A DNA stretch of 64,000 nt from Bacteroides sp. OF04-15BH. Its GTDB lineage: Bacteria > Bacteroidota > Bacteroidia > Bacteroidales > Bacteroidaceae. The position numbers were made by a program, and so were the translations under genes. This document shows positions 40,366-49,366 of the stretch, one piece after another. The first letter of the stretch is position 1; each line of letters starts with the position of its first letter. The DNA is taken from positions 1-64,000 of the forward strand of contig NZ_QUEM01000016.1 in the NCBI RefSeq assembly GCF_003477995.1, written 5' to 3'. The notes beneath the pieces are model-generated. The model saw nothing but the letters and a program-made list of their open reading frames with translations, did not search any database and was not told the DNA's origin.

Positions 40366-41250
40366 AAAAATTCGTACATTTTGAGGATTTTCTTAGACCA
40401 GATTAAGTTTTTTCATTTCTGCACAACATATTGTTTCTCATTGTAATAGCCTTATTTTATCTTCTGAGATTTCAATTTTTCGGATCAGAGGACGAGTCGA
40501 GCGAGAAATCGGAAGTCTCACCTGAAAAAAGAAACCAAAAGTATTCGGTAATACTATACCCGTTAAACAATAAGCAACTTCGCTATTTCATATTGTAGTC
40601 TCTGAATATCCGAAATACCTTTACACCTAAAAAATCAGATATATAATATGACTCGAACAGCATTTATGCGTTACAACACAAACATATCGCTACTTTTCCA
40701 AGAAGCAATATATCAATGTAATAAAAATGATTGATACATAATTTGCCACTAGAAATTTTATTTTATTGAAATTCAAAGTTTCCCAGTAAATAAATTACAA
40801 GAACGAGATATTTTTCCCTTTTTAGTAGTATAGCGTATTTATCAATGGAGTGCAATATTATACAAAATAGAGTACATATTTTGGAGTTGTCTTTAAATCT
40901 TTATGAAGTGAGATAATATGAAGATTGATGTTGATTTGTGTCGTTTTGTTATATGGTATAGTCCGTTTGTTGGCATTTGTGCCTGCATTTTATGATACTA
41001 TGAAATTTGGAAGAACAGTAGTAGTTGTTGTTAGACTTGACTACGGTATACATCATCCTCATATAATTCGTTATTTTTTTACCCAATATATCAGTGAATA
41101 GCTGATTTTTACAACTTATCATATTTGTTATTGATTAGAGCTTCCTGCATACTGATGAAGCATACATGATATGAAGCATAAAAGAAATAATCTTTTTTCC
41201 TAAGTTTAGTTATAACTGAGTTTTTAGTAAAGATTTCCAATAAAATTCTT

Positions 41251-41258
41251 TAAATTTG
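41251..41258 (+). promoter_or_regulatory. -7 box of the M42/peptide/rSAM operon
   Basis: TAAATTTG fits TAnnTTTG and lies 22 bp before the ATG at 41281. The -33 element is not clear. Confidence 0.6.
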
Positions 41259-41280: not shown

Positions 41281-42327
41281 ATGGAGTTTAATACAAGTTT
41301 TTTAAAGCATGCATCAAGTATAATTGCACCATCCGGTTATGAAAAAGAAGTTGTTGATGTATGGTGCAAAGAAATGTCACAATATGTTGATGAGATTAAT
41401 CTTACGAATATAGGTAATGCTGTAGCTGTAAAGTATGGCTGTGGAAATATACGAAAAAAAATAATGATAACTGCTCATGCTGATGAAATTGGAATTATAG
41501 TTACTTATATTGACAATGATGGTTATTTGTATTTTGATGAAATAGGTGGAATAGATACCAATATTCTTCCGGGTAGAACTGTATTAATAAAAGGTGTTGA
41601 TAATCGAATTATTAAAGGAGTCATAGGAGTTAAACCAATTCATCTCCAAAAGGATCCAGGTTCTAAGCAGTCATTAAATCCTGAAGATTTGTGGATTGAT
41701 ATTTGCGTAGGTAATAAAGACTCAGCTTTAGAGTTGGTAGAAGTTGGTAGTATAGGAACATTGGAGTCAGTAGCATATCAGCAAAGTACAAAGATGATAG
41801 GAAAGGCTATGGATAATAGATGCTCCCTTTCTGCAATGATTTCTATAGCTCAAATACTTGCAGAAAAAAAATGTATTGATGACATATATTATGTTGCCAC
41901 GACTCAGGAAGAACTTAGAGGAAGAGGAGCCCAGACTGCTGCATTTGCTATAAATCCAGACCTATGTATAGTTTTGGATGTAACTCATGCAACAGATTAC
42001 CCTGGAATGTCTCCAGTAAGAGATGGTAATATAAATTTAGGAAAAGGCGTTGTTGTTGCAATTGGTCCTAATATGGATAATGAAATTACGAAAAAAGTTG
42101 TATCTTTGGCAAAGAATTTGAATATTAACTATCAGATAGAGGTTTTTGCACGTCCGACTGGTACTGATGCTAATGTGATTCAGATTAGCCGTGATGGAAT
42201 CCGTACTTTGTTATTGAGTATTCCTTGTAGATATATGCATAGTCCTGTTGAGACCATAGATATAGAGGATTTAAAAAGTTGCTGTACTTTAATAACTGAG
42301 TTAATAGAGAACAGACATTATTTATAA
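41281..42327 (+). CDS. M42-family zinc aminopeptidase
   Basis: 348 residues. All metal ligands of the M42 (glutamyl aminopeptidase/PepA-like) site are seen: H66 and D68 in ITAHADEIG, D178 in GKAMDNRCS, the catalytic pair E210-E211 in TTQEELRGRG, D233 in VLDVTHATD, and H320 in YMHSPVE. GTDANVIQ is also conserved. These cytosolic enzymes trim N-termini of peptides. Here the gene precedes a 34-codon peptide gene by 28 bp, suggesting it may process the matured peptide or remove its leader. Codon use is markedly AT-rich, unlike the flanking core genes. Confidence 0.9.
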   Translation: MEFNTSFLKHASSIIAPSGYEKEVVDVWCKEMSQYVDEINLTNIGNAVAVKYGCGNIRKKIMITAHADEIGIIVTYIDNDGYLYFDEIGGIDTNILPGRTVLIKGVDNRIIKGVIGVKPIHLQKDPGSKQSLNPEDLWIDICVGNKDSALELVEVGSIGTLESVAYQQSTKMIGKAMDNRCSLSAMISIAQILAEKKCIDDIYYVATTQEELRGRGAQTAAFAINPDLCIVLDVTHATDYPGMSPVRDGNINLGKGVVVAIGPNMDNEITKKVVSLAKNLNINYQIEVFARPTGTDANVIQISRDGIRTLLLSIPCRYMHSPVETIDIEDLKSCCTLITELIENRHYL

Positions 42328-42355
42328 TTATAAACTTAAAAATAAATTAAAAAAA

Positions 42356-42460
42356 ATGAAAAAGAGAATTACATTCAATTGGTCAGAAAAAAAGATTTCT
42401 GATGCTGAGCGCGTAGGAGCTATGTATTGCTTCAAACGCTGTGATGTAAACCAAAACTAA
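42356..42460 (+). CDS. RiPP-precursor-like 34-residue peptide
   Basis: A short gene with an ATG at 42356 and a stop at 42458-42460. The N-terminal half is basic and polar (MKKRITFNWSEKKISDAERV) and could be a leader bound by the maturase. The C-terminal part is compact and likely modified: VGAM, Y24, C25, F26, K27, R28, C29, D30, and an N32-Q-N34 end. Two cysteines three residues apart and several aromatic residues are suitable rSAM targets. The gene sits directly before a radical SAM/SPASM gene, follows the M42 peptidase gene by 28 bp, and its last codons form part of a hairpin. No homologue is recognised. Placement and composition, not similarity, support the call. Confidence 0.72.
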   Translation: MKKRITFNWSEKKISDAERVGAMYCFKRCDVNQN

Positions 42461-42471
42461 TTTTGGTTTAC
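42446..42471 (+). promoter_or_regulatory. Hairpin at the end of the peptide gene
   Basis: A perfect 11-bp stem GTAAACCAAAA/TTTTGGTTTAC (42446-42456, 42461-42471) spans the last codons with the stop in its 4-nt CTAA loop. It may slow 3' decay of the peptide mRNA. Confidence 0.7.
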
Positions 42472-42482
42472 AGAAATTTTGA

Positions 42483-42510
42483 TGCCCCAGAAAAAAGTGG
42501 GGCATTTTTT
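42483..42510 (+). terminator. Terminator or attenuator between peptide and maturase genes
   Basis: A 7-bp GC-rich stem TGCCCCA/TGGGGCA (42483-42489, 42498-42504) is followed by TTTTTT (42505-42510). No promoter fits in the 23 bp before the radical SAM ATG, so the maturase gene must be reached by read-through. This would make the peptide transcript more abundant than the enzymes. Confidence 0.82.
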
Positions 42511-42533
42511 ATTTATATAAGTTTTGATAGATT

Positions 42534-43871
42534 ATGAATGGAGAATTGAATTACGATGATATACTTCATTTCCCTAATGAAATAGTTGTAGAAAAAATCA
42601 ATAATTTCTATCTGGTTATTGCCGTACAAACAGCAAATTGGATTGTCCTTTATAATACCAGACAGATAGATTTTCTAAATATGCTACGTTCTGGAAAGTG
42701 CGTTGGCAATGTAATAGAAACAGTGGATAGCGAAGAAGCAATGGGTGACTTAAAGATTGTCTTGGCTGCAATTTTTGCAAGAAAATTTGCAGGAGTCAAT
42801 GACGAGATAACTAAAGAATATCTTGAAGGTTACAAAATGCTTAATATATATATTACAAATGCATGTAATCTTAAATGTAAACATTGTTTTATGCTGTCCG
42901 GGAAAAAACTGGAAAATGAATTAACATTAGTAGACTGGATGGAAGTTCTGACCTCATTCAAAGAAAATGGAGGAGAATTTGTAACTTTCTCTGGTGGAGA
43001 GCCTCTTATGTTTAAAAATTTCCCGCAAATAATAAATCATGCTCATGATTTAGGTTTGAAAAGTACTGTTCTTTCCAATGGGTTGTTGTGGTCAGATAAA
43101 TTGATACATGATTTGGCTCCATTTATTGATGAAATTCAGTTTAGCCTTGATGGTGTTGATGAAGAAACAAACTCCATGGTAAGAGGAAGTGGGCATTTTG
43201 AAAAAGTTGTAGATACTATTGTGAAATTTGCCAATGCTGGAGTAAAGACGTCTGTCGCTACTACATTTACTTATGACAATCTTAATGAGAATACACAGAC
43301 CCGATACAAAAATCTGGTCGATTTGATAAAAGAAAAAACATCAGGTAAAGATGTATTCTTCAAACTTAGCAAGAAGCTTCTTCCCGGTAGAGATGTGCAT
43401 TTTACAGCTGAAGAGAACGAAAAATATTCTGCAATAATAAAGGATATAGAAAAGCATGTTGATGAAAATGCAGATTATGAGAACTTCCTTGCCGGTCATA
43501 CTGCAAATCTGGTAGCTATAAATTGTGGATTGGGAGGTATTTCTATCAGCTCGGATGGAAATGTCTACTTCTGTAACAGAATAAACGAAATGGAAACATT
43601 CGGAAATGTTACTGAGAAACCAATGTCTTTTTTCATGGAAAAAGGTAAAGAAATACATTCGGCTACTTCAGTTGATAATGTTATCCCTTGTAGAGACTGT
43701 GAATTGAGATATATTTGTGACGGTGGATGTAGAATAGATGATTTCGATTTTGCAGGTAAAATACAATCTTCGGTTTTGCCATATCATCAGATAAGTTGTA
43801 ATGATGAAAAAAAGAATAAGCTGAAGAAAAGAATGATAGATAGCTTTAATTACTTTTATAAGTTTGACTGA
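42534..43871 (+). CDS. Radical SAM/SPASM peptide maturase with N-terminal RRE-like domain
   Basis: 445 residues. The first ~85 residues (VEKINNFYLVIAVQTANWIVLYNTRQIDFLNMLRSG) resemble a PqqD-like RiPP recognition element. The radical SAM core has the [4Fe-4S] motif C111-xxx-C115-xx-C118 (NACNLKCKHCFM), the GGEP of FSGGEPLMF, and LSNGLLW. The SPASM region has C331, C347, then C386-xx-C389-x5-C395-xxx-C399 (CRDCELRYICDGGC) and a final ISC. Such enzymes make sactionine, ranthipeptide or cyclophane-type crosslinks in peptides. It overlaps the SNF2 gene by one base (TGATG). The target is most likely the 34-residue peptide just upstream. Confidence 0.9.
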   Translation: MNGELNYDDILHFPNEIVVEKINNFYLVIAVQTANWIVLYNTRQIDFLNMLRSGKCVGNVIETVDSEEAMGDLKIVLAAIFARKFAGVNDEITKEYLEGYKMLNIYITNACNLKCKHCFMLSGKKLENELTLVDWMEVLTSFKENGGEFVTFSGGEPLMFKNFPQIINHAHDLGLKSTVLSNGLLWSDKLIHDLAPFIDEIQFSLDGVDEETNSMVRGSGHFEKVVDTIVKFANAGVKTSVATTFTYDNLNENTQTRYKNLVDLIKEKTSGKDVFFKLSKKLLPGRDVHFTAEENEKYSAIIKDIEKHVDENADYENFLAGHTANLVAINCGLGGISISSDGNVYFCNRINEMETFGNVTEKPMSFFMEKGKEIHSATSVDNVIPCRDCELRYICDGGCRIDDFDFAGKIQSSVLPYHQISCNDEKKNKLKKRMIDSFNYFYKFD

Positions 43872-46159
43872 TGGAATACAGGTTTGTATGTATATTGAAT
43901 AATACGACTTCAAACCGAAATATTGACATTGAAGTCTGTATGGAAACAGGTTCCAGATCTTTGTCTCCGTTTCAAAGAAAAGTAAACGGAGATGATATTC
44001 GTCGTTCCAAAATTTTTCAGACAGACCGTTTGGCTCAACTCCTGTTTATGGTTGGACAGGAAGAACAGCCGTTTATTTTCGCTCCAGTGCAAATGGTGAA
44101 TGAAGAACTAATTCAAGCTTTGTCTAATCATGAATGGATATACCAGCGTTCTGGAGGGAAAAATTCATCTCTAAGAAAAATAAAAAATATAACATCTGTT
44201 CTGAAAAACTATGTTTCCTCGGATAAAATACCTATTTGCAAAGGAAAACTTATCGGGGGAGAAATTTATATATCAGATATTCGGGCGTGGTGGAAGAAAA
44301 TGAATCTAAGATTTAGATATGAAGATTCTGCTACATTATATCCAATATGTTATACTTCCATTCCAATTAAAAATGATAATAACGATTTCTTTTACAGAGA
44401 TAAAGAGGGTGAAGATATATTTATAGAATCTATTGATTTAAATCTTGACAGATTATACAGCACGTTATCGTTAGACAAGCCCGATGTAAAAGTACTTACA
44501 GAACTTATATCTAAGGGATGGAAACTCTATTTACCCTCTTCTAAAGGAGTATACTCTACAGCTTCATATCATAGAGATAAGAACGGGATAGAGTGGTTTT
44601 CGTCTGAAAATGAAGAAAGTCCTGACTCTTTAAATATTAAAGATATTCTTCATGCATACCTTAATAGCAGAAATTATATAGAGTCGGATGGTAACTTTAA
44701 TTTGTTTGATTCTGATAAGATAAAGAATCTTACTCCTGAGAAGTTTATCGGTAGTTTGATTCCCAACAATATAAATATCGAGAATTTTTATAAACCTATA
44801 CTACCTTTATCTGATAGCGAAAGAGAAAAAATAACTTCGATAGTTATTGAAAATGTGAATGTACATTTGAAACCATATCAGATGGATGGCGTTATGTGGT
44901 TATCTCAGCTCAGAAAGAATCATAGGGGAGGGCTGCTTGCTGACGATATGGGATTGGGCAAGACATTACAGACATTGGCTTATCTTACTACAATAGCTGA
45001 AGAAAGTAACAGATTTCTTGTAATATGTCCAGCTTCACTTACTGCAAATTGGAAAAATGAAATAATAAAGTTTACCCCCCAATTGTTAGAAAGAATCGAA
45101 ATACAGTCATACGAAGCCATAAGGATTCATGCTTCGGAATACCGCAAAAGAGTATTTGATACAATAATAGTAGATGAAGGACAAATGGTAAAGAATGACA
45201 ATACACACCGTCATAAAGCCATAGAGTCACTTAACAGACATTATTTGATTATACTTAGTGGTACTCCCATTGAAAATTCTATTGATGAAATATGGGCACA
45301 ATTTAAACTTATACAGCCAGAAACTGAGCTGATATATAATAAAATCAAGAGTTTGACTGACACTAACGATAGAAAGAAGGTAGTGGAACTGTCTAAAATG
45401 TTTCTGTCACCGTTTATATTAAGAAGGACAAAAGATGATGTTTTGAATCTGCCTGATATGGTCGTAGAAAATGTATATATAAAGCTTTCGAAGGAAGAAC
45501 GAGAAATATATTCCAAAGTAAGAAAAACATTTCTCCTTGCTATGAGTGATGGAACAAGTGGACGATTGACCAGTATAGCACTTGAGGGGTTATTAAGATT
45601 AAGACAATGCTGTGTAAACACCAGTCTTTTGCCACTTAATCTGAGTGGAAAAGCGATGATAGACAGTTCTAAATTCAAATTCGCAATAAAACTGATAAAG
45701 GATTTCGTTTCACAAAATCATAAAGTATTGTTGTTTTCACAATTTACTTCAGCTTTGGAATTACTTATAAAGCATTCGGAACTGAAAAAACTGAACCCGT
45801 TAATACTTACAGGTAATACGCGTAACAGACAAACACTTGTCAATACATTTCAGAATGATCCTTCTGCCACAGTTATGATGGTAAGTATAAAGGCTGGAGG
45901 AACAGGACTGAATCTTACAGCTGCCGATAGAGTAATTCTTCTGGATGACTGGTGGAATCCTGCTGTTGAAAGTCAGGCTTTTGCACGGACTCACCGGATA
46001 GGTCAAGAAAATGATGTTAAGGTATATCGTTTGGTTTGCAAAGATACCGTTGAAGAAAAAATTTTGGAACTACATAAAAACAAGGAGGAAATGTCCGAAT
46101 TATTCAATACTATAAATGAAAAACTCACAATAGAAGAGATAAAACAACTTTTTGACTAA
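43871..46159 (+). CDS. SNF2-family helicase-like ATPase with unknown N-terminal region
   Basis: 762 residues. The C-terminal ~440 residues are a complete SNF2 motor: KPYQMDGVMWLSQL, Walker A GLLADDMGLGKT (K364), Walker B-like DEGQ (D435-Q438), LILSGTPIENS-type motif III, RRTKDDVLNLP, then the helicase C part with VLLFSQF, GGTGLNLTAADRVILLD and QAFARTHRIGQ. It acts as a DNA translocase. The N-terminal ~330 residues do not match a domain I know; they contain YPICYTSIPIKND and EWFSSENEES. It is followed by the ADA-like gene after 15 bp. SNF2 proteins are recurrent in phage defence (for example DISARM). Confidence 0.92.
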   Translation: MEYRFVCILNNTTSNRNIDIEVCMETGSRSLSPFQRKVNGDDIRRSKIFQTDRLAQLLFMVGQEEQPFIFAPVQMVNEELIQALSNHEWIYQRSGGKNSSLRKIKNITSVLKNYVSSDKIPICKGKLIGGEIYISDIRAWWKKMNLRFRYEDSATLYPICYTSIPIKNDNNDFFYRDKEGEDIFIESIDLNLDRLYSTLSLDKPDVKVLTELISKGWKLYLPSSKGVYSTASYHRDKNGIEWFSSENEESPDSLNIKDILHAYLNSRNYIESDGNFNLFDSDKIKNLTPEKFIGSLIPNNINIENFYKPILPLSDSEREKITSIVIENVNVHLKPYQMDGVMWLSQLRKNHRGGLLADDMGLGKTLQTLAYLTTIAEESNRFLVICPASLTANWKNEIIKFTPQLLERIEIQSYEAIRIHASEYRKRVFDTIIVDEGQMVKNDNTHRHKAIESLNRHYLIILSGTPIENSIDEIWAQFKLIQPETELIYNKIKSLTDTNDRKKVVELSKMFLSPFILRRTKDDVLNLPDMVVENVYIKLSKEEREIYSKVRKTFLLAMSDGTSGRLTSIALEGLLRLRQCCVNTSLLPLNLSGKAMIDSSKFKFAIKLIKDFVSQNHKVLLFSQFTSALELLIKHSELKKLNPLILTGNTRNRQTLVNTFQNDPSATVMMVSIKAGGTGLNLTAADRVILLDDWWNPAVESQAFARTHRIGQENDVKVYRLVCKDTVEEKILELHKNKEEMSELFNTINEKLTIEEIKQLFD

Positions 46160-46174
46160 TAAATCTATAATATA

Positions 46175-48823
46175 ATGGAACATTTAAGTAATGCGCTGAA
46201 AGCTGTTTTTAAGGAACAGGATGGCGATGAAGTCCTTTTTTGTGCGAATATGATGCAAAAGGATAATCAATATAACCGTGGTGAAATGCCACGTCCTGAT
46301 ACGGAGATGAAAGAATCGCAGATTCAATACCTATTAAGAAAGGTTAATACATATAATACTTTAGATCAAGAATCAATAGTGGGGCAGGTTGTAGTTTCTG
46401 AGTGGATGAAACCTTTAAAGTCTCATAAAGAGTTAAAATCTTTCAACCTGTCTGTTTTCAATATGTTGTTGCATTTTGCGTGTAAGACTATATATTTTAA
46501 AAACAACGATCCGGTTTGTCATTATTCCAAATTATTAAGGTGGCATAATGTCTCAAATCTCTTTGGAGAAGATACATTTACTACTGTTTTTGCAGCATCT
46601 CTCGATATTGTTAACAGGTCCAAAAGGAAATATTTTGATTGGCCGGCATATATTGATCATAATAATAAGGAAATTAATGCTCTGTTTAAAAATAAAATGG
46701 CAGATCTCCACATGCACTTAAAAGGCTCTTCATATAATTTTGATATAAGCTGGCTTTCGATAATGAACAATATTACGAGCATGGAGAATATTTTTACCGA
46801 AGTTTATAACTTGCGGAAAACTTACGGATGGGATAAGGATCTTTATGCAAAAATGTATAGAGCATGTGCCATACGTTTATATTTAGCCTCACGAACCGGA
46901 TTACTATCAGAAAATGCCCAAATTACATCTGCTCAATTGTCAATTATCATTGACGATAAAATGAATAATGCAAATGACGCTATCGTACACAGTGCAATCG
47001 ATGAGTCTGCCAAACGTCAATTATTGGAATCACATTCATTGGAATTTCTACTGTCCAAAGCTAAGGAAACATCAAAACATTTTGAAGATAAATCTGACTA
47101 CCAGGATTTGGATTATATACGAATTCCACGTTACAATAAGGATAATGTTAGATCTATACTTTCATCTGAAAGAGAGCTGATGTATAGTGTTTTTAGACTA
47201 TTATTAGAGGGTTGTGATGACTATAAAGATATAAGTTCTCTTTTTTATAGTTATCTCTGTTATAAGATTAAATTTAGAAATGCAATAATTCAGTTAAATT
47301 CTACGGTTGGATTTCACAATTTTACATTGTATGAAGAAATAAAAGATAAGTTTATTGCAAAAAGACATAAGAAATTTCTTTATAAAGCAGCGATAGAGTC
47401 TTTTTTAATAAATGGTAAAGATAGGTATCTTGAAACTCGTATAGTTCCTGATACAACAGCAGAGGGTATAGCAGAAAAAATAAAAGAAATAGCAGAAAGT
47501 GTAGATGAAAAATATAAAGAAAGATTTTCAATTATATTACATTTCATAAAGTCTAGAGATGAAAGAAAGGATAAGGAATATAGGCATAAGGAATTAAGAG
47601 AAGATATCAAAAAAAGAGCTTTTGCTATACATAAATTCCGTAATAATGCTGAATATCTTGGAGTAGGTTCCGAAGATTATCCTCTTTCTGGATATGTTGT
47701 GGGAATTGATGCTGCAAATACAGAGCTCATGTGTCGTCCAGAGGTCTTTGCTCAAGCTTTTCGATTCCTTAGATACCATAATATAAAGAATAATGGAAGA
47801 CAAAGACCTAATGATTTGAATATAACCTATCATGTTGGAGAAGATTTTTATGATATAGCAGATGGACTTCGTGCAGTCGAGGAAGCTATGATTTACTTTA
47901 ACTTGAAAAATGGTGACAGATTAGGCCATTGTCTTGTACTAGGTACTGACGTAAGAAAATACTATTCCATGCGTTATAACACTATATGCTGTACCAAGCA
48001 GGTCCTGCTTGATAATATGGTTTGGTTACACCACAAGTGTAAAAGATTGTTTGGCTTTACTCCTCTCTGTTATTATTTAGAAGGAATATTTAATCAATAT
48101 TTTTATGAAGTGTATCAAGGACAAATATATCAGGATGGTAAGATTAATTATGAATTATTGGATGATCCTGATGTTAAAAATAATATCAATGACTATTACC
48201 AGTCGTGGGTGTTAAGAGGGAATAATCCTAAATTTGCTAGTGATAGGGAAGAAGGTGATGATGAATTAGAACAAGAATGGGACAACTGTGCAGAAAATCA
48301 TGAATATGGAATAGAAATCGCAAAATTCAATATCAATGCGCTTGAATTGTTCGATCAGTATCATAAAGATGAAATTGTAGAGAGAGGCTCGGAAGCTGTA
48401 GCCTTTACTATAAAGGAAAGCTATGTAGAAGATTTTTATAAGCTTCTTGAGGCAATACAAGAGCAATTACTTAAAGAGATTGAAAGCAAGAGGATATCTA
48501 TAGAATGTAATCCTACTTCCAATTACAGAATTGGAGAAATGTCAAACTATGATGAACATCCTATACTGAAATTCTATAATAGTGGTTTGAACACTCCTTA
48601 CAACAAACATGATATAGCCGTTTCAATCAATACAGACGATCAGGGTGTATTTTCTACATCATTGGAAAGAGAGTATTCTTTGATAGCTTTGGCTATTGAA
48701 AGGCATCAGACTGAAGGATTCAAAAATTCACCAAGGCAGATAATAGAATGGCTTGATAAAATTAGACAAATGTCTGTTGAACAACAATTTGATAATGATA
48801 TTTTTAATTATAAAAAAGATTAG
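46175..48823 (+). CDS. Adenosine deaminase-like metal hydrolase with large insertions (RdrB-like)
   Basis: 882 residues, against ~350 for ordinary adenosine deaminase. All ADA motifs are present in order: ADLHMHLKGS (H179, H181), VVGIDAANTE, TYHVGEDF (H553, E556), GDRLGHCLVLG (H585), SIECNPTSNYRIG, and SINTDDQGVFST (D821, D822). Relative to mouse ADA, H17-H214 has 370 instead of ~200 residues and H238-D295 has 236 instead of 57, so two large insertions exist. The first ~170 residues are unrecognised. Size and insertions recall RdrB of the RADAR defence system, but no RdrA ATPase gene is near. It lies 3 bp before the next gene. It could deaminate nucleosides, nucleotides or RNA. Confidence 0.85.
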   Translation: MEHLSNALKAVFKEQDGDEVLFCANMMQKDNQYNRGEMPRPDTEMKESQIQYLLRKVNTYNTLDQESIVGQVVVSEWMKPLKSHKELKSFNLSVFNMLLHFACKTIYFKNNDPVCHYSKLLRWHNVSNLFGEDTFTTVFAASLDIVNRSKRKYFDWPAYIDHNNKEINALFKNKMADLHMHLKGSSYNFDISWLSIMNNITSMENIFTEVYNLRKTYGWDKDLYAKMYRACAIRLYLASRTGLLSENAQITSAQLSIIIDDKMNNANDAIVHSAIDESAKRQLLESHSLEFLLSKAKETSKHFEDKSDYQDLDYIRIPRYNKDNVRSILSSERELMYSVFRLLLEGCDDYKDISSLFYSYLCYKIKFRNAIIQLNSTVGFHNFTLYEEIKDKFIAKRHKKFLYKAAIESFLINGKDRYLETRIVPDTTAEGIAEKIKEIAESVDEKYKERFSIILHFIKSRDERKDKEYRHKELREDIKKRAFAIHKFRNNAEYLGVGSEDYPLSGYVVGIDAANTELMCRPEVFAQAFRFLRYHNIKNNGRQRPNDLNITYHVGEDFYDIADGLRAVEEAMIYFNLKNGDRLGHCLVLGTDVRKYYSMRYNTICCTKQVLLDNMVWLHHKCKRLFGFTPLCYYLEGIFNQYFYEVYQGQIYQDGKINYELLDDPDVKNNINDYYQSWVLRGNNPKFASDREEGDDELEQEWDNCAENHEYGIEIAKFNINALELFDQYHKDEIVERGSEAVAFTIKESYVEDFYKLLEAIQEQLLKEIESKRISIECNPTSNYRIGEMSNYDEHPILKFYNSGLNTPYNKHDIAVSINTDDQGVFSTSLEREYSLIALAIERHQTEGFKNSPRQIIEWLDKIRQMSVEQQFDNDIFNYKKD

Positions 48824-48826
48824 TTT

Positions 48827-49366
48827 ATGGAAAAATTTTACAAAGAATTTGGCTTAAAAAAAGTTCTTGAGTGTGGGGGAACAAACTCTTGGGATAAAGT
48901 TAATGTAGGAAATAAAGTCTTTTTAGTGAACGATTTAAAAAAAAAGTACAAACTTACAGGATTTGAAAAACAGGTAGGAGTTGTTTGGAAAGGTAATATA
49001 GTTTCAACGAAAGAATATAAAAAAACTATATCGAAGACTATTAATAGAAGTAATGGTGAATCAGAAAAGATTGCAGAGGATATTTCAGAAAAAATTATAG
49101 AGAGCAATATCATAGAGAAAGAGGAAGGAAGTAACGATGGTATAGTCATTGGCGTAATTCCCGAAGAAGAAGGAAAATTTATTAAAGACTTCCTTGAAAT
49201 GGGATGGGATGATGATATTTTATTTAGTGCAATAATAAGTCAAAACGATTCTGCAAAACCATTGGAAAACCGTTTTAAAGTGGCTGTTTATATTGAAGAA
49301 TTTGATTTTAAGAAAGTTCAAAAATTTAATGAGAAAGAAAATAAAGCTAAGCAGAACGCAGATTAA
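48827..49366 (+). CDS. Small unknown protein closing the rSAM/ADA operon
   Basis: A 179-residue acidic and lysine-rich protein with no family recognised. It opens FYKEFGLKKVLECGGTNSWDKVNVG with the pattern of a short beta-rich domain (KVFLVNDL, VGVVWKGNIV). The linker EKIAEDISEKIIE is helical, followed by GIVIGVIPEEEGKFIKDFLEMGWDDDILFSAII and a charged end. The first gene segment could be a small ligand- or nucleic-acid-binding domain. It starts 3 bp after the ADA-like stop, so it is very probably part of the same system. Confidence 0.7.
   Translation: MEKFYKEFGLKKVLECGGTNSWDKVNVGNKVFLVNDLKKKYKLTGFEKQVGVVWKGNIVSTKEYKKTISKTINRSNGESEKIAEDISEKIIESNIIEKEEGSNDGIVIGVIPEEEGKFIKDFLEMGWDDDILFSAIISQNDSAKPLENRFKVAVYIEEFDFKKVQKFNEKENKAKQNAD

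Follow-up and report, generated by a model that had tools for sequence, protein, structure and literature searches.

In the defence system RADAR, the adenosine deaminase RdrB is encoded beside the AAA+ protein RdrA, and passages of one study describe that RdrB converts ATP/dATP to ITP/dITP and is toxic upon overexpression (PMC9994260). For the HIRAN domain of HLTF, a protein that also carries a RING domain, binding to fork-like DNA and single-stranded DNA is reported, and standalone bacterial HIRAN proteins exist (passages in PMC4666394). Trimming of leader peptides by aminopeptidases is known for other ribosomally synthesised and post-translationally modified peptides (RiPPs), the respective passages of PMC10885120 making no mention of M42 enzymes, and two further studies have noted, from co-localisation and co-expression, that RiPP clusters can lie close to defence systems (PMC11118758, PMC12715929). 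Here we describe a six-gene cassette in a 64,000-nucleotide stretch of Bacteroides sp. OF04-15BH DNA (contig NZ_QUEM01000016.1, positions 1 to 64,000; hereafter the window), which encodes an M42 aminopeptidase, a short precursor peptide, a radical S-adenosylmethionine (rSAM)/SPASM maturase, an SNF2-family translocase, an RdrB-like deaminase and a HIRAN-domain protein (Table 1). We find ourselves evenly divided over whether this is a mobile anti-phage cassette of the abortive-infection type, with the deaminase as effector, SNF2 and HIRAN as sensor and the rSAM-modified peptide as regulator.

The first-pass annotation of the window, made from its letters, had already named the M42, rSAM/SPASM, SNF2 and RdrB-like deaminase families, and Pfam, PADLOC and NCBIfam agree with it; its unnamed 'small protein' can now be assigned to the HIRAN domain. 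The fifth protein matches RdrB in PADLOC (1.7e-33) and NCBIfam (7.6e-53; 180 bits, the cut-off being 800), and the deaminase motifs HxH, HVGED and TDD are present in it and kept in the aligned copies. A family search gave 111 proteins, and an alignment of the window protein with 46 of these 111 hits was used to scan genome contigs, from which the best 80 of 347 relatives were taken (L001-L080), and viral contigs (6 loci, L081-L086), i.e. 86 loci in total. Two kinds of loci emerged. The deaminases of kind A (L001-L013 and L081) are 44-97% identical to that of the window and are accompanied by a HIRAN gene in 14/14 loci and by RdrA in none (0/14), whereas from L014 onward identity is at most 39%, and the loci of kind B (L014-L080) contain RdrA in 65/67 and HIRAN in 0/67 cases; the two without RdrA, L021 and L079, have less than 1.4 kb upstream. 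An SNF2 gene is found in 13 of the 14 kind A loci as an open reading frame (ORF) of at least 60 aa; L002 shows a tail of 42 aa where its contig breaks off. SNF2 and HIRAN occupy the place of RdrA in kind A loci. M42 and maturase are complete in 11 of them, L002, L005 and L011 being cut by the contig end. In kind B, the M42-rSAM-SNF2 block occurs in 3/67 loci (L014, L015, L036), and L071 has two remote rSAM matches; the other five viral loci include four with RdrA and one (L083, a partial match) in which it was not found. A rapidly built tree of 44 deaminases, namely those of the window, L001, L003-L036, L081 and seven from L037-L080, places kind A in one clade with a support of 100; L014, L015 and L036 together with L017 are its sister at 92, a value under the tool's star level. 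Two observations stand apart from this comparison. The deaminase ORF of L003 (10001-12712) is split in two pieces, and this copy may be broken or an assembly error. In addition, a gene of 220-250 aa precedes RdrA-RdrB in 6/67 kind B loci (L014, 6666-7337; L036, 2630-3310; L017, L018, L019 and L057); PADLOC finds a resemblance of the L014 copy to the Pycsar cyclase PycC (9e-22), the other copies match that of L014, and the two of the six that were scanned against Pfam gave no match.

The first-pass annotation had held that the six genes would be a chance neighbourhood if they failed to recur together, or if the SNF2-deaminase pair regularly occurred without peptide and maturase. In fact, the same families recur across kind A loci despite differing flanks. 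SNF2 adjoins in 14/14 loci of the clade, and all 11 with enough contig have maturase, peptide and M42 as well. Reciprocal searches and an all-against-all comparison of neighbours led us to reject a chance neighbourhood. In the latter (window 30-60 kb, L001, L003-L013 and L081; longest-ORF gene calls; 1e-10) SNF2 and deaminase were common to all 14 loci, rSAM and HIRAN to 13 and M42 to 12, and three further families were each shared by just 2/14; the misses are due to contig ends in L005 and L011 and to the HIRAN gene of L081, which was displaced by an overlapping false ORF, yet found otherwise. What did not hold up is the picture of a single fixed operon: membership is constant, but gene order is permuted three ways, with M42-peptide-rSAM-SNF2-deaminase-HIRAN in the window, L001, L004 and L012, deaminase-HIRAN-M42-peptide-rSAM-SNF2 in L003, L008 and L013, and one block on each strand in L006, L007, L009, L010, L081 and, as far as its contig reaches, L005. 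For M42, rSAM, SNF2 and deaminase, the matrices of pairwise identity correlate with r of 0.91-0.95 (12 clade members, with only the larger piece of the split L003 deaminase; 0/999 permutations as high).

At species level the system is rare. In genome samples that overlap and include the seed genomes, the maturase query matched 2/393 genomes of the order and 11/399 of the family of G007 (both at 1e-30), 3/348 of the genus of G009 and 2/61 of the Phocaeicola-type genus of G001 (both at 1e-90), the second match in the last sample being G1145, whose contig breaks off within the maturase, behind M42; a maturase alignment matched 1/345 genomes of the phylum (1e-60). The matches among the 399 genomes comprise seven strong (E <1e-136) and four weak ones (1e-83 to 1e-69), and the N-terminal 325 residues of SNF2 match the same seven at 1e-5 and nothing else. 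An RdrB-family deaminase is present in 6 of these seven: four are of kind A with HIRAN (G001=L001, G005=L008, G006=L009, G007=L010) and two have the block beside RdrA-RdrB (G009=L014, G011=L036). Kind A loci with a named organism belong to Bacteroidales, apart from the metagenome bins L002 and L007, whose other labels are presumably binning errors. Outside this set, plasmid pTS1 of Treponema saccharophilum (L087, 7953-11737) carries an rSAM gene (31%) just before an SNF2 gene (36% over the motor) and no deaminase; a gene with an FRG domain lies upstream, and rSAM and helicase are separated by an open frame without assigned function. This pair is possibly a second kind of rSAM-SNF2 system.

In the spacer that separates the M42 and maturase genes, 14/14 loci (16/16 with the window and L100) encode a peptide with the C-terminus GAMYCF[KR]xCDVNxN-stop, so that a short conserved precursor adjoins every maturase. 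Over the 16 loci, 11 of the 14 core residues are invariant, one is K or R and two are variable, and the codons change synonymously. Thus the 34-aa ORF is very probably translated and under constraint; called lengths range from 34 to 45 aa, the longer ones being due to start choice. A hairpin of differing sequence follows in 16/16 spacers folded, with z of -2.9 to -6.0 for 13 whole spacers; the remaining three (L001, L008, L010), in which the longest-ORF start had cut the spacer, were re-folded from the ATG start without shuffle control, and two of them had given no unusual stability in their cut form. As this hairpin is terminator-like and comes after the peptide, more peptide than enzyme is probably made. 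The flanks of the 14 loci (10 kb at most, often cut by contig ends) have no recurring exporter or immunity family, for which reason the matured peptide probably stays inside the cell and a secreted toxin is disfavoured. At the stop codon of the peptide, the inverted repeat listed in Table 1 is absent in the same form from some relatives, and several Prevotella-type copies share another element, TAATCCCCTGATCAAGGATTA, at this position.

The enzymes on both sides of the peptide appear intact. The metal-ligand motifs of M42, AHxDE, D, QEEL, DVTH and MHxP, are kept in 15/15 copies, as are the CxxxCxxC motif and seven SPASM-type cysteines of the maturase. The best named families for the latter are StsB and SkfB. 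The RiPP recognition element assumed by the first-pass annotation could not be confirmed, as Pfam profiles gave a PqqD-like match in 0/14 maturase homologues. Near-identical maturases lie on at least 1000 contigs within one protein cluster. We also considered weak rSAM relatives (31-38%) as additional cassettes and rejected them, as G285 and the four weak matches among the 399 genomes (G714, G489, G490 and G565) showed neither M42 nor SNF2 in the stretches that were read. Two weak maturase relatives (L102, 1159-3889; L103, 8384-11502) are followed by the same two uncharacterised proteins, one of 113-114 aa and a longer one beginning MEQNNN, and may perhaps represent another rSAM-peptide system.

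In the SNF2 protein, residues of about 327-745 form the motor, and residues 1-325 were matched only in this system (399 genomes); residues 1-256 are covered by none of the structural matches listed. The small sixth protein is a standalone HIRAN domain: its fold is that of HIRAN, and Pfam HIRAN is found in 6/18 of its homologues (best 1.7e-4), the window copy itself having no match. A sequence search of the PDB with the HIRAN profile returned no HIRAN entry. By analogy with HLTF, the protein would bind DNA ends or forks. It is 179 aa long in the window, compared with 110 aa in L001, and its variable middle contains an insertion of about 50 residues. Between these two copies its gene shows a synonymous divergence (dS) of 1.06 and a non-synonymous divergence (dN) of 0.22, compared to a dS of 0.12-0.18 for the other five genes. 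We do not favour fast mutation; exchange of alleles by recombination is the likelier cause, and the HIRAN gene has apparently been exchanged between otherwise near-identical cassettes. In L013 (3125-3753) two overlapping ORFs lie between deaminase and M42, of which the second resembles the first HIRAN by eye; this fits a turnover of the HIRAN gene.

Defence genes, whose presence around the cassette the first-pass annotation had suggested looking for, indeed lie beside it in the loci inspected. The cassette of Phocaeicola vulgatus ATCC 8482 (L001) is located between ZacABC and the BREX genes BrxHI, PglZ and PglX. Further PADLOC neighbours are AbiLi (L008), ThsB of Thoeris and PDC-M62A (L010), Avs4 (L011), AbiU (L014) and HEC-02A (L036). 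In the window the left flank holds a nan-type lyase and an epimerase and the right flank OmdA/YdeI, HAD, acetyltransferase and AraC genes. The cassette DNA is 95% identical to the ATCC 8482 copy, whereas the lyase gene 2.6 kb upstream is just 78% identical to that genome, which points to a probable recent horizontal transfer between species. As to the vehicle, we rejected a plasmid origin (no near match of cassette DNA in plasmids, and distant rSAM and deaminase protein matches of 26-31% identity) and a phage origin (no match of the deaminase in phage records). One 18-kb, putatively viral IMG/VR contig (L081/L142) carries the gene set; the exact peptide pattern gave no hit in viral contigs, but it demands Lys and so misses L081, which has Arg.

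Based on these data we propose the following scheme, in which we infer defence function, substrate, DNA-end sensing and the chemistry and sign (inhibitor or activator) of the peptide. The SNF2 protein and the separate HIRAN protein, which would split over two proteins what HLTF/Rad5 unite in a single one, would recognise intermediates of phage replication, such as free 3' ends or forks, and switch the deaminase on, in the role that RdrA has in RADAR. Once switched on, the deaminase as effector would turn the (d)ATP pool into (d)ITP. The first-pass annotation had spoken of a 'nucleotide or RNA-directed deaminase'; the RdrB family is in line with the former and makes the latter unlikely, as the studied member acts on ATP/dATP mononucleotides. 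The rSAM/SPASM enzyme would cross-link the 34-aa peptide, probably via Cys25 and/or Cys29, the M42 aminopeptidase would trim the leader from its N-terminus, and the conserved 14-residue product would remain in the cell as ligand or cofactor of an SNF2/deaminase complex, its simplest role being that of a safety catch which holds the self-toxic deaminase off. The most specific version, in which the cross-linked 14-mer never leaves the cell and is an obligatory ligand of the SNF2/HIRAN sensor driving an ATP-deaminating effector, seems possible, though we hold it tentatively and lean against it. If true, this would be, to our knowledge, the first RiPP that serves as an internal part of an immune system and not as a secreted weapon, a signal or a free redox cofactor.

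Several observations weigh against the proposed cassette. We know of no precedent for an intracellular, rSAM-made peptide that regulates a defence system. The deaminase scores far under the NCBIfam cut-off for RdrB, so that ATP is suggested as substrate by family membership. Six window neighbours show no defence domain in a Pfam scan, and the 19 proteins of the six island loci were picked by eye, three of them being RdrA and cyclase-like genes from L014 and L036; 18/19 match in PADLOC (none for L008:8840-9868), several of them only as generic ATPases, SIR2 proteins or methylases. The OmdA gene in the right flank is 92% identical to its ATCC 8482 homologue, and the argument for transfer hence rests on the left flank; as this homologue lies about 9 kb from the cassette there, the gene may mark a shared insertion hotspot. 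Finally, G406 possesses M42-peptide-rSAM-SNF2 and no deaminase was found in its 1.9-Mb assembly, the contig ending inside SNF2, and L014, L015 and L036 carry this block beside RdrA-RdrB and without HIRAN.

The last two observations are also what one would expect if two defence systems travelled together, M42-peptide-rSAM-SNF2 acting alone with the peptide as its own effector or sensor, and deaminase-HIRAN being a reduced RADAR. The arrangement on opposite strands described above is in keeping with such independence, and so are the two of six maturase-first genomes with a deaminase that are of the RdrA-RdrB kind. In L014, L015 and L036 the block proteins are about as close to the window as those of the clade (M42 39-42% vs 41-48%; rSAM 46-50% vs 44-53%; SNF2 37-38% vs 38-43%), whereas the deaminase is further (39% vs 46-50%), and in unrooted gene trees these three loci form a clade with an outstandingly long stem in the deaminase tree only. 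However, neither block was found alone on a long enough contig, RdrB-family genes are present in all but one of the seven maturase-first genomes, the identity matrices correlate, and even these three exceptions pair the block with RdrB, the SNF2 gene of L014 ending 7 bases before the first gene of the RdrA-RdrB unit. The block has thus met RdrB in two settings, a pattern that would support either a link to RdrB or the mere sharing of an island, and a block beside RdrA-RdrB is equally compatible with two systems sharing one island and with a block that works with RdrB. Overall we regard two separate systems as rather unlikely.

It is improbable, in our opinion, that the peptide is turned into a small redox or metal cofactor for SNF2 or the deaminase, in DNA repair or nucleotide metabolism and not in defence. 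The precursor PqqA gives rise to pyrroloquinoline quinone and MftA to mycofactocin, and the invariant core, the dedicated aminopeptidase, the SPASM clusters of the rSAM enzyme and a HIRAN-SNF2 pair reminiscent of fork-repair enzymes would all suit such a pathway; the patchy occurrence (from 1 to 11 genomes in samples of 345-399) and the nearby defence genes together with an RdrB-family deaminase indicate conflict over housekeeping. A conventional bacteriocin cluster of the RiPP type (sactipeptide- or ranthipeptide-like) beside unrelated defence genes has little to recommend it. The maturase does resemble StsB and SkfB, a short Cys-containing precursor and an adjacent peptidase are present, and rSAM RiPP clusters are common in Bacteroidales according to parts of a survey (PMC10352776). 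Against this, a peptidase-transporter is present in 7 of the 9 Bacteroidales clusters that the survey depicts, and in our loci exporter and immunity families do not recur, the core is invariant across genera instead of being diversified, and SNF2 starts within 13 bases of the maturase end in complete loci. That the peptide is an alarm signal, accumulating or released on infection and activating SNF2 or the deaminase with M42 as the degrading off-switch, strikes us as very improbable indeed: M42 enzymes are aminopeptidases and the hairpin suggests excess peptide, but nothing found favours release or an infection response, and the data fit a safety catch equally well.

Table 1. Features of the cassette in the window (positions counted from the first letter of the window)
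Feature	Positions	Strand	Basis
Putative Bacteroidetes-type -7 box, TAAATTTG	41251..41258	+	Promoter consensus match upstream of M42
M42 family aminopeptidase, 348 aa	41281..42327	+	Pfam Peptidase_M42 4e-81
Precursor peptide, 34 aa, near-invariant C-terminus GAMYCFKRCDVNQN	42356..42460	+	Comparison across loci
Near-perfect inverted repeat GTAAACCAAAA...TTTTGGTTTAC across peptide stop codon	42446..42471	+	Read from sequence
Terminator-like hairpin and T run, peptide-maturase spacer	42481..42511	+	Folding
Radical SAM/SPASM peptide maturase, 445 aa	42534..43871	+	Pfam Radical_SAM 1.4e-23, SPASM 1.3e-4
SNF2-family translocase, 762 aa	43871..46159	+	Pfam SNF2 and Helicase_C
RdrB-like adenosine deaminase, 882 aa	46175..48823	+	Pfam A_deaminase 5.3e-12; PADLOC and NCBIfam RdrB
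Standalone HIRAN-domain protein, 179 aa	48827..49366	+	Homologue profiles, fold

As the first-pass annotation had stated, the six genes point in one direction (41281-49366, + strand) with gaps of 28, 73, -1, 15 and 3 bases. Its remark on AT-richness needs some adjustment: the G/C content per kb is 0.31-0.35 over 41-49 kb, compared to 0.42-0.56 for most of the rest of the window, but the low values extend beyond the cassette and cover 40-54 kb at 0.31-0.38. The putative -7 box corresponds to TAnnTTTG, presumably the consensus of the Bacteroidetes type; an exact match is found within 150 bases upstream of M42 in 9/16 loci, and DNA homology with the second Phocaeicola copy starts at 41235, just 5' of the box. 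Rfam families and tRNAs were not found in the window.

We recognised no description of the six-gene set in open-licence full text of PubMed Central, among the matches listed. In the main text of the Bacteroidales RiPP survey, a term search for SNF2, helicase, M42 and deaminase gave 0 occurrences, and the P. vulgatus cluster BGC2, to judge from its description there, is another cluster, being one of those with a peptidase-transporter (PMC10352776). We class the combination as a new variety of putative deaminase-type defence, apart from RADAR. Its significance would lie in three points. Firstly, RdrB-family deaminases are not tied to RdrA, one clade having an SNF2 motor and a trans-acting HIRAN protein instead, and comparing loci with RdrA to those with SNF2/HIRAN makes the switch-on of RdrB testable. 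Secondly, the cassette is a compact case of gut bacteria tying a peptide-maturation pathway without recurring exporter to an immune-type effector. Thirdly, a close copy exists in P. vulgatus ATCC 8482, and the predicted product, defined and nearly invariant over 14 residues, lends itself to isolation and characterisation.

Compared with known systems, the single components find relatives in different places. The maturase shares the rSAM + SPASM architecture with the streptosactin maturase StsB and with SkfB, but stays far under the NCBIfam cut-off for StsB (131.9 of 625 bits), so it is not assigned to StsB, and its genomic partners are unlike theirs. Its radical SAM domain also scores 97.7 bits with prokaryotic viperins (pVip), though only 82.8 of the 180 bits required by NCBIfam for viperin, and it differs from pVip in its SPASM domain, its N-terminal extension and the adjacent peptide gene. 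The best PADLOC matches of the SNF2 protein, i.e. DpdE, ZorD, DrmD and BrxH, cover the motor only, and the M42, rSAM, deaminase and HIRAN proteins match no component of Dpd, Zorya, DISARM or BREX in a scan of these proteins without the peptide. HLTF and Rad5 resemble the cassette in pairing HIRAN with SNF2, but do so within one protein, whereas here two bacterial genes are combined with a deaminase and peptide maturation. Cad1, the CARF-fused adenosine deaminase of type III CRISPR systems, is in part similar in being described as a nucleotide deaminase that acts as immune effector; the PADLOC CARF_ADA match is weak (2.7e-10) and covers the deaminase C-terminus only, and no CRISPR-type partner is among the recurring cassette genes. 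As for RADAR, NCBIfam RdrB is found in 47/47 aligned homologues, and the window deaminase matches the solved RdrB structures 8fnv/8fnw. Lacking the RdrA gene of that system in all kind A loci and having SNF2, HIRAN, peptide and M42 genes in its place, the cassette is not a member of RADAR.

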